DNA of 64,000 nt from Aequorivita sp. (GTDB taxonomy: Bacteria > Bacteroidota > Bacteroidia > Flavobacteriales > Flavobacteriaceae). The stretch lies in assembly GCA_020435825.1 (NCBI GenBank), contig JAGQYY010000001.1, forward strand, positions 80,808 to 144,807, given 5' to 3'. The translations under genes were made by a program, and so were the position numbers. Below are positions 14,088-54,623 of this stretch, one piece after another (positions within the stretch are counted from its first letter, which is position 1; each line of letters begins with the position of its first letter). The notes below the pieces were generated by a model that saw only the letters and a program-made list of their open reading frames with translations, did not search any database and had not been told where the DNA came from.

Positions 14088-16052
14088 ATGAGAAAAACAA
14101 TTAATATTTTAGTTTCCCTGATTATGGTTGCCGGTTTGGTTAGCTGTAATGGCGGAGACAAAAAAGGAAACAAAAGCAAAGGTGGTTTGGCCACTAATGC
14201 TGCTGAAAAAGTGTACGTAGCTCCCGGTGAGCACGATGAATTTTACGCCTTCATATCAGGTGGATTTAGCGGACAGCTTTCTGTGTATGGCCTTCCATCC
14301 GGACGTTTGTTCAAAGTAATTCCGGTATTCTCTCAAGATGCTGAAAAAGCTTGGGGCTATAATGAGGAAACCAAGCCAATGTTGGAAACTTCATTCGGTT
14401 TTGTGCCTTGGGATGATAGTCACCACCCAGACATTTCGCAAACAAATGGTGAATTGGACGGGCGTTGGGTTTTCATCAACGGTAACAATACACCACGTAT
14501 CGCCCGTGTTGACCTCACCACTTTTGAAACTGCTGAAATTATTGAAGTGCCAAACAGTGCCGGTAACCACAGTTCTTCATTCATTACTGAAAATACGGAA
14601 TATGTTGTTGCGGGAACTCGTTTCTCTGTACCAATTCCACAGCGTGACTTGCCAATTAAGGATTATAAAGGAAACTTTAAAGGCGCACTTTCATTTATTA
14701 GTGTAGATCCTGAAACAGGGCGTATGGCAATAAAATTCCAATTGATGATGCCCGGTTTTGATTATGACCTTTCTCACCCTGGTCGCGACAAATCGCACGG
14801 CTGGTTCTTCTTTACAACTTATAATACTGAAGAGGCAAACACTTTGTTGGAAGTTAACGCTTCCCAAAATGATAAGGATTTCATCGCAGCTGTAAACTGG
14901 AAAAAAATTGAAGAATATGTGAACAATGGTGGTGGAACAAAAGTTCCTGCAAAATATGCGCACAATGTTTACAGTGATGAGACCCATACTGCTACATCTA
15001 CAATGATGAATGAGGTACTTACTGTTAATCCATTGGATGTTCCCGGAGCTGTTTACTTTCTTCCTACTCCTAAATCACCCCACGGTTGTGATGTAGATCC
15101 AACAGGTGAATATATTGTAGGTAACGGAAAACTTTCTGCCGATTTAACAGTTCACTCATTCACAAAAATGCTTGATGCAATCGAAAACAAGAAGTTTGAT
15201 GGCGAAGCTTACGGCATTCCAATCCTTAAATTCGAAGATGTACTTGCCGGAACTGTTAAACAACCAGGCTTAGGCCCATTGCATACCGAGTTTGATGGAA
15301 AAGGAAATGCTTATACAACCTTCTTTATCTCTTCTGAAGTTGTAAAATGGAAAGTAGGTACTTGGGAAGTTGTGGACCGTCAACCAGCTTACTATTCTGT
15401 TGGTCACGGTATGATTCCTGGTGGAAACTCTCGCAAACCGTTTGGAAAGTATTTTGTTTCTATGAACAAGATTACCAAAGACCGCTATTTGCCAACGGGA
15501 CCAGAAGTAACCCAGTCTGCACAGTTGTATAACATTAGTGGTGATAAAATGGAACTGTTGTTAGATTTCCCAACTATTGGAGAGCCACACTACGCTGCCG
15601 GTATTCCCGCAGAAATTGTTGCCAAGAATTCAAAACAATTATTCAAATTGTCAGAAAATAAACACCCTTATGCCACAATTTCAGATGGTGATGCTAGGGT
15701 AGAGCGCAAAGGAAACGAAGTCCATATTTATATGACGATGATTCGTAGCCACTTTAATCCAGACAACATTGAAGGTATAAAAGTTGGAGATAAGGTTTAC
15801 TTCCACGTTACAAACCACGAGCAGGATTATGATGTGCCACATGGTATAAGTATGATTGGTGCTAATACTTCAGAATTGCTTATTATGCCAGGCCAAACAG
15901 AAACCTTTGTTTGGGAACCTAAACAGCCCGGCGTATGGCCGTTCTATTGTACTGACTTCTGTTCTGCATTGCACCAAGAAATGCAGGGTTACGTTCGCGT
16001 AAGCCCAGCAAGTTCTGGAACTGAACTTAAATGGTCTTTGGGAGAAGACTAA
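14088..16052 (+). CDS. nosZ: Nitrous oxide reductase, clade II (Sec/lipoprotein type)
   Basis: This 654-aa multicopper enzyme reduces N2O to N2. The N-terminus is a lipoprotein-type Sec signal (LVSLIMVAGLVSC, Cys at 20) rather than a twin-arginine signal, the mark of clade II enzymes. The seven-bladed propeller holding CuZ contains the His-rich stretches DDSHHPDIS, HPGRDKSHGW, YAHNVYSDETH, SPHGCDVDP and LHTEFDGKG. The C-terminal cupredoxin domain ends with the CuA motif CTDFCSALHQEMQGY (two Cys, His, Met). It has about the usual length for clade II. The gene follows the cytochrome c and fasciclin genes and is closed by a strong terminator. Confidence 0.97.
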   Translation: MRKTINILVSLIMVAGLVSCNGGDKKGNKSKGGLATNAAEKVYVAPGEHDEFYAFISGGFSGQLSVYGLPSGRLFKVIPVFSQDAEKAWGYNEETKPMLETSFGFVPWDDSHHPDISQTNGELDGRWVFINGNNTPRIARVDLTTFETAEIIEVPNSAGNHSSSFITENTEYVVAGTRFSVPIPQRDLPIKDYKGNFKGALSFISVDPETGRMAIKFQLMMPGFDYDLSHPGRDKSHGWFFFTTYNTEEANTLLEVNASQNDKDFIAAVNWKKIEEYVNNGGGTKVPAKYAHNVYSDETHTATSTMMNEVLTVNPLDVPGAVYFLPTPKSPHGCDVDPTGEYIVGNGKLSADLTVHSFTKMLDAIENKKFDGEAYGIPILKFEDVLAGTVKQPGLGPLHTEFDGKGNAYTTFFISSEVVKWKVGTWEVVDRQPAYYSVGHGMIPGGNSRKPFGKYFVSMNKITKDRYLPTGPEVTQSAQLYNISGDKMELLLDFPTIGEPHYAAGIPAEIVAKNSKQLFKLSENKHPYATISDGDARVERKGNEVHIYMTMIRSHFNPDNIEGIKVGDKVYFHVTNHEQDYDVPHGISMIGANTSELLIMPGQTETFVWEPKQPGVWPFYCTDFCSALHQEMQGYVRVSPASSGTELKWSLGED

Positions 16053-23261: not shown

Positions 23262-23305
23262 ATGACAATGGTCATATTCCGCAACTACTTCATTTCCTTA
23301 CTTTG
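23262..23305 (+). promoter_or_regulatory. FNR/CRP-like box of norCB
   Basis: The perfect palindrome ATGAC-AATG-GTCAT lies at 23262-23275. TTTG ends at 23305, 36.5 nt from the dyad centre. This is the most symmetric of the ten boxes. A start site near 23311 gives a 43-nt leader to the norC ATG at 23354. Confidence 0.72.
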
Positions 23306-23353: not shown

Positions 23354-23800
23354 ATGCTATCCAAACAACAAGCGCGGGCATTTTTCCTTGGGGGAACGCT
23401 CGTAACATTCCTTATTTTTATTGGCCTTACCATCTATTCCTTCAGCGACGGCCAGGATCAAACCAATTATGAAAATATTACCGCACAAGTGGTGCGCGGT
23501 AAAGTTATTTGGGAAGAAAACAACTGTATGGGCTGCCATACCATTCTTGGCGAAGGCGCTTATTATGCGCCAGAACTTACAAAGGTCATTGAGCGCCGTG
23601 GGGAAGGTTATGTAAAAGCGGTACTTATGACTCCCGTGCCCTGGGCGCCCAACGATCGCAAAATGGTTGCCTATGGTTTTTCCGAAGATGAAGCTATGGA
23701 CGTTATCGCCTTTTTTAATTGGATAGGTGAAATAGACCTAAATGGCTTTGACCGTATTGTATCGCCATTGGCCAAAGACAAGCAACTCAATAACAACTAA
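23354..23800 (+). CDS. norC: Nitric oxide reductase cytochrome c subunit
   Basis: This 148-aa protein has one N-terminal membrane anchor (residues ~10-30) and a periplasmic cytochrome c domain with CMGCH at residues 58-62. A candidate axial Met is M104 in DRKMVAYGF. NorC passes electrons from soluble donors to NorB. The length and the motif GEGAYYAPELTKVIERRG are typical of cNOR. It is followed by norB 15 nt later. Confidence 0.96.
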   Translation: MLSKQQARAFFLGGTLVTFLIFIGLTIYSFSDGQDQTNYENITAQVVRGKVIWEENNCMGCHTILGEGAYYAPELTKVIERRGEGYVKAVLMTPVPWAPNDRKMVAYGFSEDEAMDVIAFFNWIGEIDLNGFDRIVSPLAKDKQLNNN

Positions 23801-23815
23801 CCAACAACTATAATC

Positions 23816-25165
23816 ATGAAATATAAATCTCAAAAAGTAGCATACTGGTTTTTTGCACTTTCAATGCTTTTACTGGTACTTCAAATAACCTATGGCTTTA
23901 TTATGGGTTTTGCCCGTATCGGGATGGACGGTCTGCACGATTTTATTCCCTTCAATACTGCTCGTGCCGTTCATACTAATTTACTTGTAGTATGGTTGCT
24001 CTCTGGCTTTATGGGTGCTGCCTACTACATTATCCCGGAAGAAGCTCAGCGTGAACTCGTGAGCGTAAAACTGGCGTATGTTCAGCTTATTTCCCTCGCC
24101 GCCGTGGGCGTTGCCGCTATTGTTGGCTATCATTTTAATTGGTGGGAAGGACGTAAATTTTTGGAAATTCCACGCCAGCTCGATTATTTGGTGGTTTTAA
24201 ACGTACTGCTATTTTTAGCACTCATTCTCTTAACGCTTTTTAAAGGAAAACGAAAAACCACAACAGCACTCGTACTTTCCATGGGGTTGCTGTTTGCCGC
24301 ATTATTATATATTCCCGGCATGTTACCGTTTGATAGTCAGGTAACAGATAGTTTTTTCCGTTGGTGGGTTGTTCACCTTTGGGTTGAAGGCGTTTGGGAA
24401 CTTATCATGGGCGGTATTCTTGCCTTCCTATTGATTAAACTTACAGGTGTTGATCGCGAGGTTATTGAAAAATGGCTCTATGTAATCGTTGGGCTCACCT
24501 TCCTTTCTGGGGTACTTGGCACCGGCCACCACTACTACTATATTGGTGTAAATAAAATATGGCTTATCGTAGGAGGAATCTTCTCAGCCTTGGAGCCTTT
24601 GGCATTCCTCGCAATGGCACTTTTTGCGGTAAATATGTACCGGAAAGGAGAGAAAAAGCATCCAAACAAAATAGCATTGTTTTGGACACTTGGTGCCGCA
24701 ATTGTATCCTTCGTGGGTGCGGGACTGTTAGGATTTGCACATACACTTCCACAAACTAACCTCTATACTCACGGAACTCTTGTAACTGCAATGCACGGCC
24801 ATTTGGCTTTTTGGGGTGCGTATGCGATGATTGTTTTGGCAATTATAAGCTACAGCCTTCCAAACATGACGGGGCGCAAATTCTATGACGGCATTCGCGG
24901 GCGTTTAGCTTTTTGGACTACAAATATTGGAATGATCGGGATGACGATGGCCTTTGGCGTCGCTGGAGTTGCGCAAGTTTATCTGGAACGCAAATTCGGA
25001 ATGGAATTCATGGCGGTACAAGAGGAAATTAGCATCCACTTTGTTGTGTTGATTATCTGTGCCAGTCTTTTTTCTTTCGGTATCATAACTTATATCATCG
25101 ATTTTGCCAAGCATGGCCGCCCCACCGATGAAGCATTGGAAACCTTAGAAAATAATTATCTCTAA
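23816..25165 (+). CDS. norB: Nitric oxide reductase catalytic subunit (cNOR)
   Basis: This 449-aa polytopic haem-copper-superfamily protein has about 12 helices. All canonical ligands are visible: haem b H53 (AVHTNLL) and H329; haem b3 H327 (AMHGHLAFWG); FeB H187 (VVHLWVEG), H238 and H239 (GTGHHYYY); and active-site glutamates E191, E195 and E260. It reduces 2 NO to N2O with electrons from NorC. It is complete and should be functional, in contrast to the second NorB-like protein at 31378. Confidence 0.97.
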   Translation: MKYKSQKVAYWFFALSMLLLVLQITYGFIMGFARIGMDGLHDFIPFNTARAVHTNLLVVWLLSGFMGAAYYIIPEEAQRELVSVKLAYVQLISLAAVGVAAIVGYHFNWWEGRKFLEIPRQLDYLVVLNVLLFLALILLTLFKGKRKTTTALVLSMGLLFAALLYIPGMLPFDSQVTDSFFRWWVVHLWVEGVWELIMGGILAFLLIKLTGVDREVIEKWLYVIVGLTFLSGVLGTGHHYYYIGVNKIWLIVGGIFSALEPLAFLAMALFAVNMYRKGEKKHPNKIALFWTLGAAIVSFVGAGLLGFAHTLPQTNLYTHGTLVTAMHGHLAFWGAYAMIVLAIISYSLPNMTGRKFYDGIRGRLAFWTTNIGMIGMTMAFGVAGVAQVYLERKFGMEFMAVQEEISIHFVVLIICASLFSFGIITYIIDFAKHGRPTDEALETLENNYL

Positions 25166-25321
25166 TAAAATAAAGGCCTGAAGCTGGTTACGCTCTTATA
25201 CCTGAAAATCTGGGAATTTTTTATTTTAAGTCCGTTCCCAAAAAGAACTAAGCTTCGGGTCTTTAAAAAACTTTGACTGTCATATTTCAGCACAGTTGAA
25301 ACGACAATTAAATTTATGATT

Positions 25322-26143
25322 ATGCCAACTTCAGAAACAATCAGCATAAATGAAAACCCGAAAATTATTTCGGAACAGCCTTTTTATAAGCCTATGGCCC
25401 ACGAAGTTGAAATTTTTCAACATGCCTTTAAGAATAAACTCCCCATATTGTTGAAAGGTCCAACGGGCACTGGAAAGACTCGTTTTGTTGATTTCATGGC
25501 GCATAAAATGGGGCAATCGCTCATAACGGTTTCCTGTCACGAGGAAACTTCTTCAACAGACCTTATCGGGCGCTATATAATCAAAGGTGCAGAAACCATT
25601 TGGGTAGACGGTCCTTTGACCAAAGCTGTAAAAGAAGGAGCAATTTTATATTTAGATGAAATTGCCGAAGCACGTCCCGATGTAGTTGTTGCAGTACATT
25701 CACTCACAGACCACAGAAAGGAACTCTACATAGACAAACTCGGTATTACCATAAAAGCGCATCCTGATTTTATGCTTGTGGCCTCTTTTAACCCGGGTTA
25801 CCAAAAAGGGTTTAAAGAATTGAAACCCTCCACTCGTCAACGTTTTGTAGCGATTTCGTTTCAATACCCAATTGTAAAGGACGAGACTGAAATAGTAGCT
25901 ACTGAAACTGGCCTAGACAAAGACACCTCAAAAAAATTGGTAAATATTGCCAACAAGATCCGCAATCTGACCGAATTGGGACTTACAGAAACAGTATCAA
26001 CTCGTTTGTTGGTTGATGCCGCACTACTCATAAACAGCGGTCTTCCGAAGCGACTTTCTGTGAAAGTTGCAGTTGTGGAACCATTGACCGATGATCTTGA
26101 AATTACACAAGCACTAACAGATTTGTGCGATTTGATGATTTAA
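25322..26143 (+). CDS. norQ: NorQ MoxR-type AAA+ ATPase
   Basis: This ~273-aa ATPase has Walker A GPTGTGKTR and Walker B AILYLDEIAEARPDVV, followed by an arginine-finger region (STRQRFV). It remodels NorCB with NorD and is needed for FeB insertion. I prefer the ATG at 25322 (MPTSETIS); the ATG at 25316 is also possible. It lies 156 bp after norB, ahead of norD. It probably continues the norCB transcript, because the gap contains only an isolated GTCAT half site. Confidence 0.93.
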   Translation: MPTSETISINENPKIISEQPFYKPMAHEVEIFQHAFKNKLPILLKGPTGTGKTRFVDFMAHKMGQSLITVSCHEETSSTDLIGRYIIKGAETIWVDGPLTKAVKEGAILYLDEIAEARPDVVVAVHSLTDHRKELYIDKLGITIKAHPDFMLVASFNPGYQKGFKELKPSTRQRFVAISFQYPIVKDETEIVATETGLDKDTSKKLVNIANKIRNLTELGLTETVSTRLLVDAALLINSGLPKRLSVKVAVVEPLTDDLEITQALTDLCDLMI

Positions 26144-26152
26144 GCCAAAGCC

Positions 26153-27922
26153 ATGTTTGAACCCGATGAGTTTATTTTCGCGAAAGTTGCAAAATTCCTC
26201 AAACACCGAAAAAAAAGTGCGAGGGAAGCAATTGCGCACACAGTGAAACTTAGCGAAATAAAGCCCAGACTCACTTTGGTAGCCCGTGCTGTAACCGGTC
26301 ATCCCATCGAGATTTTTGAGGCAGAGCAGGAAGGGGGTTATAAAAACAACGCTTTCTTTTTTCCCGAGCGTTTTTCAGGCTTTGACACTTCGGAAAAAAA
26401 CTTGGCTTTTTACATTTTCCGAGTGCTTTACCTTTCCATCCAAAAAAACTTTCATCTTAACTATGAATTGGGCGAGGAGCCCACTTTGGAAGAGGCGCGA
26501 CTAGTTTCCGAACAACATTCAGAAAAAGTATTGAAAGAACTTTTCAGCCAATTCCCGGGAACGGAAGCTATTTATTTCGAGCTGAAACTTCTTTTTGAAA
26601 AAAATACTTCGGAAAAAAAACCGCCCGACTATTCATTTATTTATGGGAAGTGGATGGAAAATTCCCCAGAAGCCCCGAAGAAAAAGGTACTTGAGAATAT
26701 TTCTGAAAAAGTAAAAACAGCCATTGAGGAAGAAATAAACACCATTTTGAAGGCCAATGCGGTGGAGGAAATCAAATCTATTGAGGTTGACAAAAAAGCA
26801 CAGGAGGATTATGTACTTACCCACAATTTTGAAAAGGCCGAAACCGCCGAGGAGTGGGAGGGTGGCTGGCGTGATTTTGATGGCGAAGACGAACTGGACG
26901 ACCACGCCAATGCGCTGGAGGATTTAAATATGAAGCAAACCGTGAGGGTGGACGACCCCACACATTCCATTTATCAAGCTGAATTTATTGAGAATACCAC
27001 AATTTCAGAAAGTGCCGAATTGGTAGCCACGGCTCATCACATTTTGTATGACGAATGGGACTATTCCAAGCGCACTTACAAGCCGAATTTTTGCAAGGTT
27101 TATCCCCAAACCCAGATTGAAACAGATTTTGATTACTACAATGATACGCTTCGGGAACATGCCTCAACTTTGATGGGTTTGCGGAAAATGCTTGCTTCAG
27201 TAAACAATAAATTTCAACAACAGCGCAGGCAATTACAAGGCGAGGAGTTTGACTTGGACGCGCTCACCGATTTATATGTGGACGTCCACACTGGCCACAC
27301 GCCTTCGGAAAATATCTATCTCTCAAAGCGCAAAAAGGAAAAAGACCTTTCCATTTTGATGCTTTTGGACAGCAGTCTTTCCAGCGATGGTTATGCCGCC
27401 GACAATAGAGTTATTGATGTGGAAAAACAGGTATCCATCATTTTTGGTGAAATTTTGGAAGAATTCAATGTAGATTTTTCAATCGCCGGTTTCTATTCCA
27501 AAACCCGAAACCACAGCACTTATTTAACCTTAAAGGATTTTGACGAACCATGGCAAAAGGCAAAAAACAAGGTTGGAGCACTGCAGCCCAGCGGTTATAC
27601 ACGAATTGGCACTGCGCTGCGGCATTCGGGAGCTTTGCTTGATAAACGCGATACAAAAAACAAATGGGTCATCTTAATTTCTGACGGAAAACCCAACGAT
27701 TATGATAAGTACGAGGGAAAATACGGTATCAACGATGTAAAGCAGGCGCTTCGGGAATTGAACCAACGGAACATAAATTCGTATGCGTTGGCGATTGAAG
27801 CGCAGGCAAAATACTATTTACCGCAGATGTTTGGGCAAAATCATTTCCAAATTTTGACCACACCTGTGGAATTGCTACAATCGCTTGTAAAACTGTATGA
27901 CAAAATAAAGCATCAAAGCTGA
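26153..27922 (+). CDS. norD: NorD von Willebrand factor A protein
   Basis: This 589-aa protein has a C-terminal vWA domain (residues ~395-585) whose MIDAS is intact: DSSLSSDG, a Thr in SGYTRIGTALRH, and ISDGKPNDYDKYEG. The N-terminal ~390 residues are helical and acidic (WEGGWRDFDGEDELDD). NorD works with the NorQ ATPase as a co-chelatase-like pair in NOR activation. It begins 9 nt after norQ and ends one base before norE. Confidence 0.94.
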   Translation: MFEPDEFIFAKVAKFLKHRKKSAREAIAHTVKLSEIKPRLTLVARAVTGHPIEIFEAEQEGGYKNNAFFFPERFSGFDTSEKNLAFYIFRVLYLSIQKNFHLNYELGEEPTLEEARLVSEQHSEKVLKELFSQFPGTEAIYFELKLLFEKNTSEKKPPDYSFIYGKWMENSPEAPKKKVLENISEKVKTAIEEEINTILKANAVEEIKSIEVDKKAQEDYVLTHNFEKAETAEEWEGGWRDFDGEDELDDHANALEDLNMKQTVRVDDPTHSIYQAEFIENTTISESAELVATAHHILYDEWDYSKRTYKPNFCKVYPQTQIETDFDYYNDTLREHASTLMGLRKMLASVNNKFQQQRRQLQGEEFDLDALTDLYVDVHTGHTPSENIYLSKRKKEKDLSILMLLDSSLSSDGYAADNRVIDVEKQVSIIFGEILEEFNVDFSIAGFYSKTRNHSTYLTLKDFDEPWQKAKNKVGALQPSGYTRIGTALRHSGALLDKRDTKNKWVILISDGKPNDYDKYEGKYGINDVKQALRELNQRNINSYALAIEAQAKYYLPQMFGQNHFQILTTPVELLQSLVKLYDKIKHQS

Positions 27923-27923
27923 T

Positions 27924-28508
27924 ATGGCCGATACTGCAAAAATTGATTACAAAAACATTTTTTACCCACCGGGCGGAATCCTGCTATGGATCATCATTTA
28001 CTTGGAACTGCTAACCTTTGGAATTGCCTTGGTTTTTATGGCATTAAACGCAAGAACGGAACCCGAGGTCTTCCACGAATCGCGTATGTTGCTCAATACG
28101 GCGTATGGCGCTATCAACACGGTTTTCTTGCTCAGTAGTGGTTGGTGCATGGCACAGTCGGTACATTTTTTGAAAACTGAAAATTTTGGCAAAAGCAAAT
28201 TATTTTTAAAGCTAACCTTGCTGGGCGGTATCCTTTTTTTGGCGCTGAAAAGCGTAGAGTATTACGATAAAGTGGAAGCTGGGCTTACCGTGGGCTACAA
28301 TGTTTTTTTCGGGTATTATTGGACGCTCACGCTTTTCCACGTAATCCACGTAATTGTTGGAATTGTAATTTTATTGGTTTTGGGAAGAACTCTCAGCAAA
28401 AAACCCGAAACCTTAAAAGTGGAAGATTACGAATCGGGCGCTGCGTTTTGGCATATGTGCGATTTGATCTGGCTGCTGCTTTTCCCGATAATCTATTTAC
28501 TTTTTTAA
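27924..28508 (+). CDS. norE: NorE, cytochrome c oxidase subunit III-like
   Basis: This 194-aa protein has five predicted helices and matches the CtaE/COX3 family (ILLWIIIYLELLTFGIALVFMALNAR, YYWTLTLFHVIHVIVGIVILLVL and FWHMCDLIWLLLFPIIYLLF). NorE is an accessory of NO reductase that raises activity; its exact role is unclear. It follows norD with one base between and precedes norF by 3 nt. Confidence 0.92.
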   Translation: MADTAKIDYKNIFYPPGGILLWIIIYLELLTFGIALVFMALNARTEPEVFHESRMLLNTAYGAINTVFLLSSGWCMAQSVHFLKTENFGKSKLFLKLTLLGGILFLALKSVEYYDKVEAGLTVGYNVFFGYYWTLTLFHVIHVIVGIVILLVLGRTLSKKPETLKVEDYESGAAFWHMCDLIWLLLFPIIYLLF

Positions 28509-30890: not shown

Positions 30891-30934
30891 CTGACAATTG
30901 TCATATTTCGCACTGAAGTGAAAAGGTATTTTTA
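30891..30934 (+). promoter_or_regulatory. FNR/CRP-like box, possibly bidirectional
   Basis: The palindrome CTGAC-AATT-GTCAT (30891-30904) has TATTTTTA at 30927-30934 on the plus side, with the last base 36.5 nt from the dyad centre. On the minus side TAATTTCG ends at 30861, the same distance away. Each is one base off TAnnTTTG. The plus-side start site near 30940 lies downstream of the GTG at 30918, so the cytochrome gene should start at ATG 30957. Confidence 0.62.
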
Positions 30935-30956: not shown

Positions 30957-31388
30957 ATGGTCGCCAATCCAAGGCCTTATATTTTTATTATGGTGATTTT
31001 GCTCGCCCTTTTCGGCTTTTACAATTATGTGATCTATAATACCGATGGCTATGTGGCCGTGGAAAAGTTATCCCCGGTGGCGGTAAATGGCCAGCAATTG
31101 TTTCAAAAGAACCGTTGCTGGTCCTGTCATCAATTATATGGTTTGGGCGGATATTTGGGACCGGATTTGACCAACGTATATTCTACCGAGGGCAAGGGCC
31201 CGAACTATATAAAAGCATTTTTGAACAGCGGGGTTAAGAGTATGCCGCAATTCCACTTTACAGAGGAAGAAAAGGATGCGCTCGTGGAATATTTGAAACA
31301 GGTGGATGAAACGGGCATTTACCCAAATTATGACGCTGAGATCGAGGCCACGGGCTGGGTAAAAATAAAGTATCGAAATGAAGAATAA
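30957..31388 (+). CDS. NorC-like membrane-anchored cytochrome c (second copy)
   Basis: The start ATG at 30957 is chosen because the promoter would begin transcription near 30940; an in-frame GTG at 30918 would then be untranscribed. The ~143-aa protein has one membrane helix (YIFIMVILLALFGFYNYVIY) and one haem motif CWSCH within NRCWSCHQLYGLGGYLGPDL, with a Met candidate in SMPQFHFTEEE. It resembles NorC in layout but differs in sequence. The 3' end overlaps the NorB-like gene by 11 bp, so the two are an obligate pair. It lies 6 kb downstream of the canonical norC. Confidence 0.88.
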   Translation: MVANPRPYIFIMVILLALFGFYNYVIYNTDGYVAVEKLSPVAVNGQQLFQKNRCWSCHQLYGLGGYLGPDLTNVYSTEGKGPNYIKAFLNSGVKSMPQFHFTEEEKDALVEYLKQVDETGIYPNYDAEIEATGWVKIKYRNEE

Positions 31389-32703
31389 AGTGCCGCTCTA
31401 TTTCTTGTTGTTTGCGCTCATCGCCCTTTTTATGGGGATGTTTTTTGGGCTTGCCGCATCGTTTCAATACCTCTTGCCCGATTTTTTAAAGGAAGCGTTT
31501 CCCTTCTCCAAGCTGAGGCCCTTTCACGTTACCTCGGAAACCTCGTGGATCGTACTTGCAGCCACGGGGAGTATCTACTTTTTTGTAGCTTCGGTTGAGA
31601 AATTCGAGCTTTTTTCATCCAAAATGCAGTGGCTTCATTTCCTGCTTTTCCTGTTTACGGGCGTCGCTATTTATTTCTCTTTTGCTTTCGATTATACCGA
31701 AGGGCGGGAATATTTCGCCTTCAAACCCATTTTGATGATCCCGATTTTACTTGGCTGGGTACTTTTCGGCATTAATTATTTCAAGACGCTTTACACCAAT
31801 ATGAAGGGGTGGCCCGTCTATTTTTGGATGTGGGGCACCGGCATCGCCTTTATGTGCTACCATTTGATGGAGGCGCATTTTTGGCTGTTCGATTTTTTTC
31901 GATTGCATTTTATAAAGGATTTTGCCGTGCAATGGAAATCCACCGGCTCGTTCACGGGCTCGTGGAATATGCTGGTTTATGGAATTTCTATTTATCTGAT
32001 GTCCAAAATTAAGAAGGATAGTAATGTGGCTACCAATAAAATGGCGTTTTTCTTCTATTTTTTGGGGCTTATAAATTTGATGTTTGGCTGGGCGCACCAC
32101 ACCTATTTACTGCCCACACAGCCGTGGATCCGGTATGTAGCCTATGGAATCAGTATGACCGAGTGGATTGTTTTGGCTTCCATTATTTACAACTGGAAAC
32201 GCTCGGTTTTAAAAGTTGAAAAGGAAAACCACCCCATGGCCTATCGGTTTTTATTGGCAACTGATTTGTGGATTTTTCTGAATATAATTCTCGCGCTCCT
32301 TTTTTCAATTCCGGCCATCAATTTCTTTACGCATGGTACACATATTACTGTGGCGCATTCTATGGGAACCACTATTGGAATTAACACAACAATACTTTTT
32401 TCGGCTCTGTTTTTTATTGCCCACCGGCTGCAGCCCAGACGCCAGATGGATACTCCTTGGGTGATGCGCGGCTTTATGGTATTCAATATTTCGTTGTTTA
32501 TCTTTTTCGTTTCGTTGATAATTGCAGGAGCTAAGCGCAGCTACTGGATGTACGTTTCAAAAGAAGGATCGTTTGCTGAAATGCAGGATTCGATCGTGCC
32601 GTATTACATTTCGTTCTTCATCTTTGGAATAGGGATTTTTGTTTCGCTGTTGATTGTTGCAAATCCTATTTTCAAAGTATTTCTTCAAAAAATTAAAACT
32701 TGA
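31378..32703 (+). CDS. NorB-like haem-copper superfamily protein with altered metal ligands
   Basis: This 441-aa protein has about 12 helices. By eye it aligns without gaps to the canonical NorB of this window across helices VI-VII. Kept: H50 (haem b), H240-H241 (two FeB ligands), E262 and H327 (haem b3). Changed: the first FeB histidine is Thr189, the two helix-VI glutamates are Thr193 and Asn197, and the second haem-b histidine (HGH in NorB) is Met329 (VAHSMGTT). Flanking residues W186, G194, W196 and G202 are conserved, so the loss is not an alignment slip. C160/H162/E165/H167 in helix V are extra candidate ligands. It could be a divergent NO reductase or a different haem-Fe catalyst. It overlaps its cytochrome partner and precedes nadA. 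Confidence 0.85.
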   Translation: MKNKVPLYFLLFALIALFMGMFFGLAASFQYLLPDFLKEAFPFSKLRPFHVTSETSWIVLAATGSIYFFVASVEKFELFSSKMQWLHFLLFLFTGVAIYFSFAFDYTEGREYFAFKPILMIPILLGWVLFGINYFKTLYTNMKGWPVYFWMWGTGIAFMCYHLMEAHFWLFDFFRLHFIKDFAVQWKSTGSFTGSWNMLVYGISIYLMSKIKKDSNVATNKMAFFFYFLGLINLMFGWAHHTYLLPTQPWIRYVAYGISMTEWIVLASIIYNWKRSVLKVEKENHPMAYRFLLATDLWIFLNIILALLFSIPAINFFTHGTHITVAHSMGTTIGINTTILFSALFFIAHRLQPRRQMDTPWVMRGFMVFNISLFIFFVSLIIAGAKRSYWMYVSKEGSFAEMQDSIVPYYISFFIFGIGIFVSLLIVANPIFKVFLQKIKT

Positions 32704-32709
32704 TTCCCG

Positions 32710-33636
32710 ATGGGTTTACATCAAAAAATAACCGAGCTAAAAAAGCAAAAAAATGCCGTAATCCTTGCGCACTACTACCAAGTGCCCGAAATTCAGGAAG
32801 TGGCCGATTATGTGGGCGATAGTTTGGGCCTTTCGCAAAAAGCTGCGGAAACAGATGCCGAAATGATCGTTTTTGCGGGCGTGCATTTTATGGCCGAGAC
32901 CGCAAAAATATTGAACCCCGATAAAAAAGTTTTGTTGCCCGATTTGATGGCGGGCTGTTCACTGGCAGATTCGTGTCCGCCGGATGCTTTCAGGAAATTG
33001 GTTGAAGCCCATCCGAAGCACGTTGTGATAACGTATGTGAATTGTTCTGCGGAAGTGAAAGCCTTGAGCGATATTATTTGTACTTCTTCCAATGCCGAAA
33101 AAATAGTGAATTCCGTGCCGAAGGATGTTCCCATTATTTTTGCACCCGATAAAAATCTGGGGAAATATATTCTGAAAAAGACCGGAAGGGAAATGCTACT
33201 TTGGGATGGTTCCTGCATCGTGCACGAGGCTTTTTCAATGGATAAATTGTTAAAACTCTACAAGGAACATCCCGGTTCAAAAATAATTGCACATCCTGAA
33301 AGTGAAGGCCATATTTTGGAAACCGCAAACTATATCGGTTCTACGGCGGGAATGATTGATTATGTGAAAAAACATCCTTCTGAAAAATTTATTGTTGCAA
33401 CGGAAGCTGGAATTCTCCATAAAATGCAGCAGGAAGTGCCGCAAGCTGTATTGATTCCAGCGCCAGCGGAAGAGGACAATACCTGTGCCTGCAGTGAATG
33501 TGCGTTTATGAAAATGAACACTTTGCAAAAGCTGTACGACTGTCTGCTGAACGAAACACCGCAAATAGAGGTTTCCGAAGAAATACGGAAAAAAGCCATT
33601 CTGCCCATTGAGCGAATGCTGGAATTATCAAAGTAA
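32710..33636 (+). CDS. nadA: Quinolinate synthase
   Basis: This 308-aa [4Fe-4S] enzyme condenses iminoaspartate and dihydroxyacetone phosphate to quinolinate. Candidate cluster cysteines are C83 (MAGCSLAD), C124 or C112 (IICTSS, VNCSAE), and one in [13 protein letters not shown]. The motif [23 protein letters not shown] is diagnostic. It begins 6 nt after the NorB-like gene and ends at the first base of nadB, so NAD synthesis here is tied to an anaerobically controlled transcript. The Fe-S cluster is oxygen- and NO-sensitive. Confidence 0.96.
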
Positions 33637-35192
33637 TGATAGAAACCAATTATTTGATTATCGGTTCGGGCGCTGCGGGCTTGACACTTGCGGTGAAACT
33701 TGCTGCGGAATTTCCGAAGAGAAAAATAACGGTTGTAACCAAAGCCAACGAATCTGAATCGAACACAAAATATGCGCAGGGAGGAGTGGCGGCGGTTTTT
33801 GATCTAAAAGAAGATTCCTTCCAAAAACACATTGAGGATACTTTGATTGCTGGGGACGGACTTTGTAACAGAGCCGTGGTGGAAATGGTCATAAAAGAAG
33901 GTCCCAAAAGATTACGCGAATTAATGACGTGGGGCGCCAATTTTGATACTGATTCCGATGGCGAACTTACTTTGGGCAGGGAAGGAGGCCACTCCCAGTT
34001 TAGGGTAATCCACCATAAGGACACCACAGGCAACGAAATAGAACGCGCACTTTTAGCGCGCACCAATCAACTTGCAAATATTACATTGCTTCCGCATCAT
34101 TTTGCGATAGATTTGATAACGGAACATCATTTTTCAGAAGACAAAACTGAAAACCTTTCGTGTTATGGTGCCTATGTTTTGGATCAGATTTCGGGGAATA
34201 TTTTTACCATAAAAGCAGACTGCACTACGTTGGCTTCGGGAGGAATGGGGCAAGTTTACGGGCACACCACCAATCCCGTCGTTGCAACAGGCGATGGTAT
34301 TGCGATGGCATATCGTGCAAAGGTGCAAATCCAAAATATGGAGTTCATCCAGTTTCATCCCACTGCACTTTACGATGGAAACAACGGCGCTTCCTTTTTG
34401 ATTTCGGAGGCGGTGCGTGGTTTTGGAGCATTTCTTCGGAACAAAAATGGTGAGCGGTTTATGTTGAAATATGACGAACGTGGCGAATTGGCTTCCCGCG
34501 ATATTGTTTCGCGCGCCATTGATTCCGAGATTAAAATGTCTGGCGCAGATTGTGTTTATTTGGATTGTACACATTTGGATATCGAAGATTTTAAACAGGA
34601 CTTCCCGAATATTTATGAAACCTGTTTGCAGCAAAGCATCAACGTTGCGAAGGATTGGATTCCAGTGGTTCCCGCAGCGCATTATCTCTGCGGTGGCGTT
34701 GTTGTGGATTTGGACGGAAAAACTTCACTGAAAAATCTTTTTGCCTGTGGTGAATGTTCTTGTACTGGCTTGCACGGCGCCAACCGGTTGGCATCCAATT
34801 CGTTGCTGGAAGCGTTGGTATATGCGGACCGTATTTTTCAGTATCTCCGTAAACATAAGCCTTCCCGCACGACCAAAGCCATTCCTGAATGGAATGACGA
34901 AGGCACGGTTTTATTGATAGGTTCTGAAATTCTTCCGCAAAAAACGGGGCAACTTCAGTGGTTGATGCGAAGATATGCTGGCGTGGTTCGAAACAACAGC
35001 GATTTAAAAGAAGCATCCCTTCAACTTGAAAAATTGTATTTTCAAATGGAGGCGCTGTATCAAAAACACAAGCTCAATACAGCACTCTCAGAACTTCGGA
35101 ATATGGTAAATGTAGCGCATTTGATTATTCAGCAATCCTTAAACCGAACAGAAAATCGCGGTGGATTTTTTAATGAAGATTATAAAAAATAA
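33636..35192 (+). CDS. nadB: L-aspartate oxidase
   Basis: This 518-aa FAD enzyme of the succinate dehydrogenase/fumarate reductase flavoprotein family has the dinucleotide motif YLIIGSGAAGLTLAVKLA, the RSA-type loop TKYAQGGVAAVFD, MEFIQFHPTALY and GECSCTGLHGANRLASNSLLEALVY. It oxidises aspartate to iminoaspartate for NadA, using O2 or fumarate as acceptor, the latter suiting anaerobic growth. It shares one base with nadA and precedes the thioredoxin-like gene by 10 nt. Confidence 0.96.
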   Translation: MIETNYLIIGSGAAGLTLAVKLAAEFPKRKITVVTKANESESNTKYAQGGVAAVFDLKEDSFQKHIEDTLIAGDGLCNRAVVEMVIKEGPKRLRELMTWGANFDTDSDGELTLGREGGHSQFRVIHHKDTTGNEIERALLARTNQLANITLLPHHFAIDLITEHHFSEDKTENLSCYGAYVLDQISGNIFTIKADCTTLASGGMGQVYGHTTNPVVATGDGIAMAYRAKVQIQNMEFIQFHPTALYDGNNGASFLISEAVRGFGAFLRNKNGERFMLKYDERGELASRDIVSRAIDSEIKMSGADCVYLDCTHLDIEDFKQDFPNIYETCLQQSINVAKDWIPVVPAAHYLCGGVVVDLDGKTSLKNLFACGECSCTGLHGANRLASNSLLEALVYADRIFQYLRKHKPSRTTKAIPEWNDEGTVLLIGSEILPQKTGQLQWLMRRYAGVVRNNSDLKEASLQLEKLYFQMEALYQKHKLNTALSELRNMVNVAHLIIQQSLNRTENRGGFFNEDYKK

Positions 35193-37220: not shown

Positions 37221-37228
37221 TAAATTTG
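37221..37228 (+). promoter_or_regulatory. -7 promoter element of first Rrf2 gene
   Basis: TAAATTTG is a perfect TAnnTTTG match, 16 bp before the ATG at 37244. A start site near 37234 excludes the in-frame TTG at 37226. No FNR-like palindrome lies 36.5 nt upstream, so this regulator gene is probably controlled differently from the respiratory genes. Confidence 0.5.
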
Positions 37229-37243
37229 GGAAAAACAAACATT

Positions 37244-37672
37244 ATGTTCTCAAAAGCTTGTGAATACGGAATAAGATCGGTCCTCTTTATTGCGGAACAA
37301 TCTCAACTGGATAAGCGCCCCAATATTGTCGAAATTGCCAAAGCTGTTGATTCTCCAGAACCATTTACTGCGAAAATCTGTCAACAACTTGCACGAGCAG
37401 GAATAATCCTTTCAAAAAAAGGGCCTAATGGCGGTTTTTATTTAGAAAAAAAATCTAAACTCACGCTCGCAGAAATAGTTGCTTGTATTGATGGAGACTC
37501 TATTTTTAATGGCTGTAGTCTAGGATTACCTGAATGTTCTGCTGAGCATCCTTGTCCAGTTCACGATCAGTTTAATGAAGTTAGGAAGGGATTGAAAAAG
37601 ATGTGTGAAAATACTACCGTAATGCAACTTTCTGAAAAACTTCGGAATGGAGAGACATTTTTGAAACTATAA
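37244..37672 (+). CDS. Rrf2-family regulator (NsrR/IscR-like), copy 1
   Basis: The ATG at 37244 gives MFSKACEYGIRSVLFIAEQS, 142 aa. It has the Rrf2 winged helix (FTAKICQQLARAGIILSKKGPNGGFYL) and three cysteines in CSLGLPECSAEHPCPVH, the expected place for an [2Fe-2S] or [4Fe-4S] cluster. NsrR-type members lose DNA binding when NO attacks the cluster. It is followed 97 bp later by a close paralog, then hemerythrin and RIC genes, so NO or Fe-S stress sensing is likely. Confidence 0.92.
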   Translation: MFSKACEYGIRSVLFIAEQSQLDKRPNIVEIAKAVDSPEPFTAKICQQLARAGIILSKKGPNGGFYLEKKSKLTLAEIVACIDGDSIFNGCSLGLPECSAEHPCPVHDQFNEVRKGLKKMCENTTVMQLSEKLRNGETFLKL

Positions 37673-37708
37673 CATTAATAAAACCAATATGATAACAAGA
37701 ATAATTTA

Positions 37709-37751
37709 TTTCTGATAACTTTATCAGAAATAGGATATTTATGTATCTTTG
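37709..37751 (+). promoter_or_regulatory. Perfect palindrome and -7 element before second Rrf2 gene
   Basis: Arms TTTCTGATAA (37709-37718) and TTATCAGAAA (37721-37730), separated by CT, form a perfect 22-bp palindrome. It is followed by TATCTTTG (37744-37751), a perfect TAnnTTTG. The palindrome sits where the -33 region would be, a good operator position for repression by an Rrf2 dimer. It differs from the FNR-like boxes. Confidence 0.65.
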
Positions 37752-37769
37752 CTTCGTGTAAAATTGGTT

Positions 37770-38204
37770 ATGTTTTCAAAAGCTTGTCAATATGGAATAA
37801 AAGCAACGGTGTATATAGCCTCACAATCCTCTTTGGGCAATCGCGTTAGTTTGAAGGATATTGCCTTTAACATCAATTCTCCAGAAGCATTTACCGCAAA
37901 GATCTTGCATCAATTAGCCAAGAGTGATATACTCGATTCGTTAAAAGGCCCTACAGGTGGTTTTGTAATACCTAAGGGTAGGGCAGAGACCATTAAGTTG
38001 AGCGATATTGTTTCAGCAATAGATGGGGATTCTATCTATATGGGCTGTGCTCTCGGATTTGAATCTTGTGATGTGCTACAACCTTGCCCAATGCACAATA
38101 AGTTTGCAGGAATCAGGGACGACTTGAAAAAAATGCTTCAAAACACCAGTCTTTATGAATTGGCCCACGGGTTGGACGACGGAATGTCCTTTTTAAAAAG
38201 ATAA
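37770..38204 (+). CDS. Rrf2-family regulator (NsrR/IscR-like), copy 2
   Basis: The ATG at 37770 gives MFSKACQYGIKATVYIASQS, 144 aa. It is a paralog of copy 1, with the winged helix (FTAKILHQLAKSDILDSLKGPTGGFVI) and cysteines in CALGFESCDVLQPCPMH. The two differ in the recognition region, so they may bind different operators. A 22-bp palindrome directly upstream suggests autorepression. The hemerythrin gene begins 3 nt after its stop and is co-transcribed. Confidence 0.92.
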   Translation: MFSKACQYGIKATVYIASQSSLGNRVSLKDIAFNINSPEAFTAKILHQLAKSDILDSLKGPTGGFVIPKGRAETIKLSDIVSAIDGDSIYMGCALGFESCDVLQPCPMHNKFAGIRDDLKKMLQNTSLYELAHGLDDGMSFLKR

Positions 38205-51775: not shown

Positions 51776-53242
51776 TTATTTGTTTCTGACGGCCTTTACC
51801 ATTTCTGGGGTAACTTCTTTTTTGGAGTTGCCCCAACTGTTATAAACGTAAGTAAGTACGTTTGCCACTTCTTCATCGCTAAGTGCCTGGGCGGTCATCA
51901 CACTGTTGTATTTTTTACCGTTAACGGTTATTTCACCAGTTTTTCCGTGTAATACAATATCGATAGCTCTGTCCACATCAGCATTTAAGTAATCAGATTT
52001 TGCCAAAGGGGGAAAAGCGCCTTCAATCCCTTGGCCATTAGCTTGGTGACAGGCAACGCAAGTAGCCATATATTTGTCCTTGCCAAAAGCCATCCTTTCT
52101 TCAATACCTAATGCTTTCACTTCTTCTTTTTCAATTTTGGCCCCACCTGTAGGCATAGATTGGATTGCGCCACCTTCTGGAAGATAGATGCCATCACGAA
52201 TTTCCCCAGAATAAATTGCTTTGTTTTCTTCACCTTCTACTTTTAGCATTGCCAAAGCGCCTTTATTGAAGGCTCTAAAAATTGAGTGGTCAACAAGTAT
52301 AAAAGTTCCCGGAACATCCACACGGAATTCAACGATTGCGGCTCCTCCTGCGGGAATTAAGGTTGTTTGCACATTTTCGTTAACGAGATCGCCCCCTTCC
52401 ACATGTACTTTGTCAAATATTTCTCCAATAACATGAAATGATGAAACCAAGTTTGGCCCGCCATTTCCAACAAAAAGCCGAATTTTTTCACCAACTTTTG
52501 CGGTAATGGCATTATCGCCTGTCATGGCACCCACGTGGCCGTTGAAAACAACATAGTCTGCCTTTTCATCGATTGCTTTCTGCATATCAAAAGCTTGCAG
52601 GCCACGATCGCCATATTTTCCCTCAGTATAGAAATCACCTTGCATGATATAATATTCTTTGTCAACTGGAGACAAACCACCTTCTGGTTCTACCAAAATA
52701 AGGCCATACATTCCGTTGGCAATGTGCATCCCTACCGGTGCGGTAGCACAATGATAAACATAGAGGCCGGGGTTAAGTACCTTGAAGGAAAACACTTTTT
52801 CGTGGCCGGGGGCTACAAAAGATGATTCCGCTCCGCCACCTGGACCATTTACTGCGTGCAGGTCTATGTTATGTGGAAGTTTGTTGTCCGGGTGGTTTTT
52901 TAGGTGAAATTCTACCTCGTCGCCCACGCGGGTACGTATAAAACTTCCGGGAACTGTTCCGCCAAATGTCCAGTACACGTATTTTACGCCATTGGTCATT
53001 TCGCCTTCACGTTCTTGAATTTCAAGATCAACAATCAGCTTCTTTGCCATTCGTTTGCCAACCGGAGTAGGTACATTTGGTGGCGAAGTAAGTTCCGCAA
53101 TCATTTCCTGATTTACGGGAATATCTACCGTATCATTGTATTTTTTGTCTGATTGGTCATTAACGCAGCCAGAAAGAAATGCTACAGCACCTATACCGAA
53201 CAGCATTTTAGTAACTAAGTTTTTTTTGAAAAGTAATTTCAT
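51776..53242 (-). CDS. nirK: Copper nitrite reductase with C-terminal cytochrome c domain
   Basis: This 488-aa lipoprotein (signal [11 protein letters not shown]) reduces nitrite to NO. Two cupredoxin domains span residues ~60-370. Type 1 and type 2 copper ligands are in [34 protein letters not shown] and [13 protein letters not shown]. Residues ~380-488 form a cytochrome c domain with [19 protein letters not shown] and a Met candidate in [12 protein letters not shown]. Such NirK-cytochrome fusions can take electrons directly from a periplasmic donor. It is the second gene of an operon started by a porin gene. Confidence 0.96.
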
Positions 53243-53276
53243 GTGGTTGGTTTTTAATGTTTGTTTTATTTATTGT

Positions 53277-54554
53277 TTATTTATTTTCGGGATTTGATTT
53301 TTGCCAAGTGAACAAAACTGGATCAATTGTCAACATAGCCCAAGCCCAGTTATTGGTATTGCCGTCATAATTGTTTTTTACGATTTCAGTTCCAGGCTGC
53401 TCGAAAAAGTGCGAATACCCGGCTTGAACGCCCACAAATTCGCTCAATTCATACGAAGCTACTAAATCTACTTCAAATCCCAAATCTTTTGATGCTTCGT
53501 CATTAATTTCTGCGGTAGCGAAAAATTGGTGGAGTGCCAAATGTACGTTTGATTTTTTGTTGAATGCATATTTTACATTTCCATAGAAATCTACCAACCC
53601 CACATTGTTGGTATGATTGCCTACATAGAAATAATCCATCAGTCCATTGAATTTATGGTTGGTACCATACAGTGGGGTAAAAGCTTTGTTTTTTCCATTG
53701 GCAGGTGCGCCATAATCATTTCCACTTTGCAGTTCGCCGCCAAGGCCAATCATAAGGTTTTCCAATGCAGAATAATTGGCTTCCAGTGAAAGCAGGTAGG
53801 CGTTTAAATCATTATTTGCCACGTCATTCCCTAATTGATAGTATAGGTTTGAAGCAAAATTGAATTTATCCACTTTTGCTTTTAAATGAATTCCTGCAGT
53901 TTGGCTATAGCGCGTGCCGTTTTTTGTTTCGTCTATCTCGTCTATGTATTGCAAGCCGTTGTTCAAAAACAAAAAACTTGCAGATAGTTTTTCCCAATTC
54001 TTGTGAAGCCAAATATATTGAAGGCTCTTGTAGGTATTGGTGGTTAGTATGTTTCCCGTTAAGGCTTCTCCATCTTGATTATATGCAGCTCCAAAATGCA
54101 GTTTCATAAAACTGGGTTCATATTTTACAATTGCCGCATCGTGGCTTCTTCCTTGTTGTGCCCAGCCTACATTTCCGAAGAAACGCTGATCGTCGTAAAT
54201 AATTTCCTGACGGCCAATTTTTAAGGAAAGATCTGAAATCAATAATACATCGGCCCAAGCTTGGTGTAACGAAAATCCGTTTTCATCGGCGCTGTTTAAT
54301 TGTGGCACATCTCCCCAAACCCTAATATCCTGAGGGCTTAAATAGAATTGTATTTGTTTGGTTTTATAACCAAAGTTCAACCTTGTGCGTTGCGAAACAA
54401 ATGCCGCAGGATCTGCACCATCGGGGAAAAGGGTTTTATAGCCGTGGCGGTATTCAAAACGCGGACGAAGTTCCGCGTCTATGGTAAGTTGAGGGTATGC
54501 GTTGGCCCACGCAAAAAGGATGGTAAAGAAAAAGATGCTTTTTTGAAGAAACAT
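53277..54554 (-). CDS. Alginate-export-family outer-membrane beta-barrel
   Basis: This 425-aa protein has a signal peptide (SIFFFTILFAWANAYPQ) and alternating beta-strand pattern typical of 16-18-stranded porins. Hallmarks of the AlgE/alginate_exp family are AELRPRFEYRHGYK, FVSQRTRLNFGYKTKQIQFY, LSLKIGRQEIIYDDQRFFG and GFEVDLVASYELSEFVGVQAGYSHFF. It lies 34 nt upstream of nirK in the same operon, behind the FNR-like box. It probably lets nitrite or other small anions through the outer membrane; that is inferred from context. Confidence 0.88.
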   Translation of the reverse strand: MFLQKSIFFFTILFAWANAYPQLTIDAELRPRFEYRHGYKTLFPDGADPAAFVSQRTRLNFGYKTKQIQFYLSPQDIRVWGDVPQLNSADENGFSLHQAWADVLLISDLSLKIGRQEIIYDDQRFFGNVGWAQQGRSHDAAIVKYEPSFMKLHFGAAYNQDGEALTGNILTTNTYKSLQYIWLHKNWEKLSASFLFLNNGLQYIDEIDETKNGTRYSQTAGIHLKAKVDKFNFASNLYYQLGNDVANNDLNAYLLSLEANYSALENLMIGLGGELQSGNDYGAPANGKNKAFTPLYGTNHKFNGLMDYFYVGNHTNNVGLVDFYGNVKYAFNKKSNVHLALHQFFATAEINDEASKDLGFEVDLVASYELSEFVGVQAGYSHFFEQPGTEIVKNNYDGNTNNWAWAMLTIDPVLFTWQKSNPENK

Positions 54555-54579: not shown

Positions 54580-54623
54580 CAAATGTCTTATTTTGTTGTA
54601 ATAACGAATATGACGTATGTCAG
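54580..54623 (-). promoter_or_regulatory. FNR/CRP-like box of the porin-nirK operon
   Basis: On the minus strand CTGAC-ATAC-GTCAT (54623-54610) is followed by GACATTTG ending at 54580, 36.5 nt from the dyad centre. The porin ATG is at 54554, a ~20-nt leader. It also lies just downstream of hemN but faces away from it. Confidence 0.65.

Follow-up and report, generated by a model that had tools for sequence, protein, structure and literature searches.

The NorB-like protein NorB2 is encoded in a 64,000-nucleotide stretch of Aequorivita sp. DNA (assembly GCA_020435825.1, contig JAGQYY010000001.1, positions 80,808 to 144,807; hereafter the window) and looks like a member of a distinct conserved family that is found in many Bacteroidota, in which part of the metal site has been consistently lost and one haem ligand changed. 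The gene, norB2, follows norC2, which encodes a c-type cytochrome, in a window that also contains nosZ, canonical norC-norB genes with norQ, norD and norE, nirK, and cbb3 genes; most of these labels are putative and given by homology. Our favored reading, which we hold tentatively and at a little less than an even chance, is that NorB2 and NorC2 form a separate functional family of the haem-copper fold that reacts with nitric oxide (NO), in a reductase-like or scavenging manner. No account of such a family was found among the matches listed in a literature search of titles and the starts of abstracts, and the claim is limited to that search.

NorB2 is predicted to have the twelve-helix subunit I fold of the cNOR and cbb3 type; the Foldseek and VIA rows are superfamily members by title and say nothing on other families. 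Where H187, E191 and E195 stand in the window's canonical NorB, NorB2 has T189, T193 and N197, and Met329 replaces the second histidine (a haem-b ligand) of the HGH motif, while H50, H240, H241, E262, H319 and H327 are kept. The first-pass annotation of this locus had placed the open reading frame (ORF) correctly, and its description of a protein without one FeB histidine, two glutamates and one haem-b histidine, but with H50, the tandem histidines 240-241, E262 and H327 retained, is borne out by comparison with the canonical NorB of the window. Since helix VI of the model (residues 182-212) contains no histidine, the loss of the FeB histidine is independent of the alignment register. A haem b with His/Met ligation and a distal site of two histidines, as also proposed in that annotation, would be the straightforward reading of the conserved residues.

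These changes extend through the family. From 143 collected rows, the 134 that scored at least 198.7 bits against a NorB2 profile were taken as the family, and nine rows at 89.5-95.9 bits, canonical NorBs encoded on the same stretches, were separated off by score. Glu262 is found in all 134 rows, and Asn197 in 133 of the 133 readable ones, as is each of H50, E165, W186, K187, H240 and H241; Met329 and His327 both stand in 132/132, and His319, which cNOR rows share, in 131 rows plus one X. An earlier count of 81 rows had a single exception to Met at 329 and a single exception to His at 327, attributed to locus L059, whose match falls in two pieces. Position 189 reads Tyr (75 rows), Gly (19), Asn (19), Thr (15), Ala (3), Met (1) or Leu (1) and never His, and position 193 reads Val (103), Thr (25), Ala (3) or Ile (2). 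Asn197 and Met329 are family signatures, and Thr189 and Thr193 are not; of the four residues singled out in the first-pass annotation for an invariance survey, the first pair is invariant and the second varies. The superfamily signature is described in PMC3413370 as a sextet of histidines, of which two bind haem b, one binds b3 and three bind the metal. NorB2 keeps four of the six (H50, H327, H240 and H241), and the helix VI histidine and second haem-b histidine are missing in all readable rows. With neither the full sextet nor the FeB ligand set of cNOR (three histidines and the helix VI glutamate), NorB2 is not classed as a cNOR, although it may still work like one.

Candidates for a replacement ligand were considered and rejected. 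The invariant histidines among 65 aligned rows (the frameshifted L059 excluded) are 50, 240, 241, 319 and 327. As shifted ligands, His162 (60/65 rows) and His167 (48/65) are not invariant, so that they cannot serve as a conserved third ligand; Tyr189 as a general substitute was also rejected, tyrosine being present in 75 of 133 readable rows. Helical-face analysis gave a moment of 0.05 for helix VI, which has no clear face, and 0.16 for helix V.

Loss of ligands might be taken as the mark of a decaying norB copy, but this is hardly credible: the same residues are fixed in 134 rows, many families within the class have the protein, and norB2 is under purifying selection. Compared with two close relatives (L003 and L004), non-synonymous and synonymous divergence are dN 0.036/dS 0.70 and dN 0.045/dS 0.58, i.e., dN/dS of about 0.05 and 0.08, which agrees with the earlier view of a specific loss rather than general decay.

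Among 299 genomes from its own taxonomic family, at least 15 carry NorB2, at 41-100% identity, and the other matches listed are at 20-28%. In the class, with a threshold of 1e-25, at least 77 of 395 genomes have it, spread across many families and with best matches at E 1.7e-113 or lower; in the phylum, with a threshold of 1e-30, at least 8 of 395 do. These searches scored the first four or five candidates per genome, and the positive counts are therefore lower bounds; the distribution was sampled within Bacteroidota. One locus (L056) is titled Chlorobiota yet is 62% identical to the window NorB2, and it is not taken as spread beyond the phylum. Among the best 80 of 348 stretches encoding a NorB2 relative, which served as the locus set, the closest named relatives of the window norB2 are from Aequorivita (Bacteroidota), at 93% identity. 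A tblastn search of plasmids returned 228 records, none at or above 60% identity to NorB2; the 60 listed were at 21-24%, and the annotated ones were NorB or cbb3-type subunit I.

In the tree, from which the wrong-frame row L149 was excluded, the NorB2 rows form one clade (support 99.8/100) outside the grouping of cNOR and qNOR (100/100), and they group with the NO reductases (NORs) rather than with CcoN (92.5/94). By this sequence-based placement, NorB2 is a branch beside cNOR and qNOR, not one inside cNOR, qNOR or cbb3. Each known system also differs from it in its residues or architecture. cNOR (NorB/NorC; 3o0r of P. aeruginosa and 4xyd of R. denitrificans) shares about 18-26% identity with NorB2, which has neither the helix VI histidine nor the helix VI glutamate pair, has methionine for the haem-b histidine, lies on a separate branch, and occurs in genomes without NorD. 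CcoN of cbb3 oxidases has the helix VI CuB histidine and a helix X HxH motif, both missing from NorB2. qNOR and NOD are single fused chains with an N-terminal cytochrome-like domain, whereas NorB2 is unfused, 441 residues long, and has the separate NorC2. As for eNOR, sNOR, gNOR, bNOR and nNOR, these are likewise NOR variants in which an active-site residue is changed; PMC8756737 and PMC11388526 relate them to the B family and give eNOR, sNOR and gNOR a cupredoxin subunit II. NorB2 has a c-type cytochrome partner instead and groups with cNOR and qNOR, so the suggestion that it is an eNOR, sNOR, gNOR or nNOR type finds no support in this comparison, in which those families are set apart by description.

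The resemblance to NOD, the NO dismutase, lies in the loss of FeB ligands and in the NOD-like genes near norB2 in three loci. That NorB2 is itself a dismutase, or some other enzyme that transforms NO without electrons from outside, is nevertheless very improbable. The changed FeB site and the presence of NOD-like genes in loci of two genera, beside norC2 in L156 and no more than 3 kb away in L207 and L208 (both of one genus), speak for it. The published NOD signature changes one coordinating histidine to asparagine and one glutamate to glutamine, and in the NOD-like rows seen here the changes fall at the tandem histidine pair and at the position of Glu262; NorB2 keeps H240, H241 and E262 intact in its readable rows and loses the helix VI histidine instead. 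In the tree, one NOD-like row was placed in the qNOR branch and NorB2 was not, and the NorC2 partner of NorB2 implies a supply of electrons. The dismutating role raised in the first-pass annotation is thus not favored, despite the NOD-like neighbors.

NorC2 lies directly upstream of norB2 in 75 of 80 loci, giving NorB2 the upstream monohaem c-type partner of a cNOR and upholding the coupling to a c-type cytochrome that had been proposed. Five loci (L070, L080, L082, L091 and L097) have no NorC2 in the cluster used, and in two of 59 further stretches (L196 and L222) norB2 has no NorC2 match despite room for one. CxxCH and a conserved methionine (Met96) are present in 76 of 76 aligned NorC2 sequences, that of the window included. 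The features of the window on which the comparison relies are as follows.

31378..32703, plus strand: norB2, the NorB-like subunit, with its ORF confirmed at these coordinates
30957..31388, plus strand: norC2, a membrane-anchored monohaem c-type cytochrome, partner of norB2
30892..30903, plus strand: predicted Fnr/Crp-type palindrome TGACAATTGTCA, upstream of norC2
23354..25165, plus strand: canonical norC-norB, the comparison genes, with their own palindrome of the same type as that of norC2 at 23263-23274
25316..28508, plus strand: genes that we take, largely by homology, to be norQ, norD and norE
14088..16052, plus strand: nosZ, the window copy of the gene present in all 20 NorB2 genomes tested
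51776..54554, minus strand: nirK and an upstream porin-like gene, probably one operon, with a palindrome of the norC2 type at 54611-54622

The norC2-norB2 pair sits between the nor block and nadA, and the end of norC2 overlaps the start of norB2 by 11 bases; norC2 could open at GTG 30918, but homologues favor ATG 30957. The palindrome upstream of norC2 is consistent with the FNR-like promoter proposed earlier. The motif TGACNNNNGTCA occurs five times in the window against 0.43 expected, and by the ORF tables four of the sites precede norC, norC2, the ccoNO gene and the porin-nirK genes, with the fifth inside ccoNO. In other loci, TGAYNNNNRTCA is found upstream of norC2 in 34 of 74, compared with 4.8% of 1480 random stretches, and the strict palindrome form in 2 of 74, compared with 0.7%; 40 of 74 loci have no TGAYNNNNRTCA-type site there. 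The type of site common to norC2, norC and the porin-nirK genes counts for an NO-linked reading.

Neighborhoods were viewed in the 80 loci with flanks of up to 6 kb, the neighbors being grouped by cluster: norD-like genes occur in 26, norE-like in 25 and norQ-like in 21. Among the 59 further stretches, a nirK match lies directly downstream of norB2 on the same strand in L152, L182, L192 and L193, the last three matches being partial (102-136 residues, cut by the locus end), and nosZ lies downstream in L203 and L197. Because these stretches are mostly short (27 measure about 4.3 kb) and some share a genome, the neighbor counts in them are not rates.

Several further observations concern these loci. 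nadA-like and nadB-like genes, at 32710-35192 (plus strand) in the window, recur near norC2-norB2 in 46 and 44 of the 80 loci without obvious reason, the nadB-like cluster being merged with a thioredoxin-like neighbor. NOD-type qNOR-like proteins, with SHN for SHH and STLQ for STLE, are encoded at L156:10375-12678, L207:459-2720, L208:9432-11669 and L171:569-2977; in L156 the gene runs divergently from norC2, the two ORFs being 68 bases apart. Beside the canonical norC of the window, 21414-23219 (plus strand) encodes a 601-residue protein that matches nothing in Pfam or NCBIfam up to E 1, and relatives of it are found in 16 of the 80 loci. The segment 20569-28508, holding an acyltransferase-like gene, the 601-residue gene and the norCBQDE block, is missing in the close relatives L150 and L159, which are otherwise colinear, and this comparison is a natural case of presence and absence of cNOR within one genus. 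At 37226-38204 (plus strand), two tandem regulators, presumably Rrf2-like, stand ahead of hemerythrin-like and RIC-like genes, where genomes G254 and G027 have one. In L147, the canonical NorB of genome G088 has leucine for the second helix VI glutamate (HLWVEGVWLL).

Other genes were sought in 20 NorB2 genomes, 15 from the family sample and five more from the phylum sample, the two samples sharing three NorB2 genomes. NosZ is present in all 20. By sample, it is found in 15/15 NorB2-positive and 127/284 NorB2-negative genomes of the family (Fisher 9e-6, assuming that both searches drew the same 299 genomes) and in 8/8 and 121/387 of the phylum. cNorB accompanies 12 of the 20 and, in the family sample, 11/15 NorB2-positive compared with 27/284 NorB2-negative genomes (Fisher 3e-8; hand count by frame length and identity), with the cNorB of G481, split over two frames, counted as present. 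NorD occurs in exactly the 12 genomes with cNorB, which means that NorB2 occurs without it in the other eight; that NorB2 does not depend on the NorQ/NorD accessory pair is read from NorD, NorQ not having been searched apart. NirK exceeds the cut-off in 10 of 20 genomes and lies in two pieces below it in G293; no clear cd1 protein of the NirS type was seen in the 20, two weak matches (G042 and G082) being over the family cut-off. qNOR/NOD-like genes occur in G667 and G232, the former combining NirK, NosZ, NorB2 and a NOD-like gene without cNorB.

Three genomes, G254 (a single contig), G027 and G263, have NirK, NosZ and NorB2; none of them has a match of cNOR or qNOR type to the window NorB, a result that PF00115 also gave for G254. 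A COX1-family search of G254 and G042 gave three matches each, read as A-type oxidase, CcoNO and NorB2. G254 and G027 are colinear with the window minus norCBQDE, with nosY followed by an acsAB-like gene, norC2, norB2 and nadA, and in G263 norC2-norB2-nirK run in one direction. Such gene content, together with the four nirK matches downstream of norB2 and the invariant E165, N197 and E262, would fit a full NO reductase in which Asn197, Glu165 or Glu262 completes a two-His-one-carboxylate/amide iron site, and which would be the NOR otherwise lacking in nir+ nosZ+ nor- Bacteroidota. We regard this as unlikely. The 12 genomes that also keep cNOR, and four (G042, G345, G436 and G577) that have NosZ and NorB2 with neither NirK over the cut-off nor cNorB, mean that NorB2 need not be the NO reductase, and the metal site in question is postulated from sequence.

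The presence of NosZ in every NorB2 genome tested would instead suit a non-catalytic electron conduit, or an NO-tolerant cytochrome, feeding NosZ or other periplasmic reductases, with the changed site reflecting lost catalysis. The third FeB histidine and both glutamates are gone, a His/Met haem b would be of the high-potential type, and NorC2 could hand electrons on. Yet NorB2 cannot be a donor to NosZ in general, because 127 of 284 NorB2-negative family genomes carry NosZ; the nirK and NOD-like neighbors point to NO, and a pure conduit should not need H327, H240, H241 and E262 to be invariant. We consider this explanation possible but doubtful.

That the b3 ligand, the tandem histidines and Glu262 are retained suggests a continuing role for the site above haem b3, and NO is the most likely substrate from gene context. 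In the NO-reactive family that we favor, electrons would enter via NorC2, as homology indicates, and pass to a low-spin haem b on His50 and Met329, which should lie at a higher potential than a haem with two histidine ligands, and then to a five-coordinate haem b3 on His327. Above b3, His240 and His241 with nearby Glu262 and Asn197, and perhaps Glu165 and Lys187, would form the distal site, which must differ from the FeB site of cNOR given the missing third histidine and glutamate; its metal may be weakly bound, different, or absent. qNOR is not known to need NorQD, so the occurrence of NorB2 without NorD does not prove a metal-free site. For cNOR, PMC9976466 calls NorQ and NorD essential for FeB insertion. 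NO would bind b3 and most likely be reduced, slowly, to N2O or scavenged, either protecting NosZ and other haem and copper enzymes or supplying N2O to NosZ.

Several points weigh against this reading. The helix VI glutamate and third FeB histidine are considered necessary for NO reduction, and NorB2 has neither; its activity is inferred. The predicted model is poor (mean pLDDT below 65 in blocks 171-190 and 241-250) beside the tandem histidines. nirK is found in none of the 80 loci within flanks of up to 6 kb. The tests for other genes cover 20 of the 94 NorB2 genomes found, and their co-occurrence counts share ancestry, related genomes not being independent. NosZ is common without NorB2, and the genomes that keep cNOR, like the four with neither NirK over the cut-off nor cNOR, count here as well.

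Whatever its activity, NorB2 stands for a large family under constraint that lacks two of the six signature histidines of its superfamily, and is a concrete candidate in genomes where no canonical NO reductase is found. A bolder view, which we think doubtful, is that NorB2 is a third lineage beside cNOR and qNOR, with the sextet reduced to four and a His/Met haem b, carrying out NO reduction in nir+ NosZ+ Bacteroidota without a recognized NOR; if so, surveys that discard sequences without the conserved ligands would miss it. Should NorB2 work without a full FeB site, it would reveal the need for FeB and its glutamate; otherwise it may represent a new type of electron carrier in N2O respirers. 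NorB2 might explain how some bacteria handle nitric oxide without a standard reductase.
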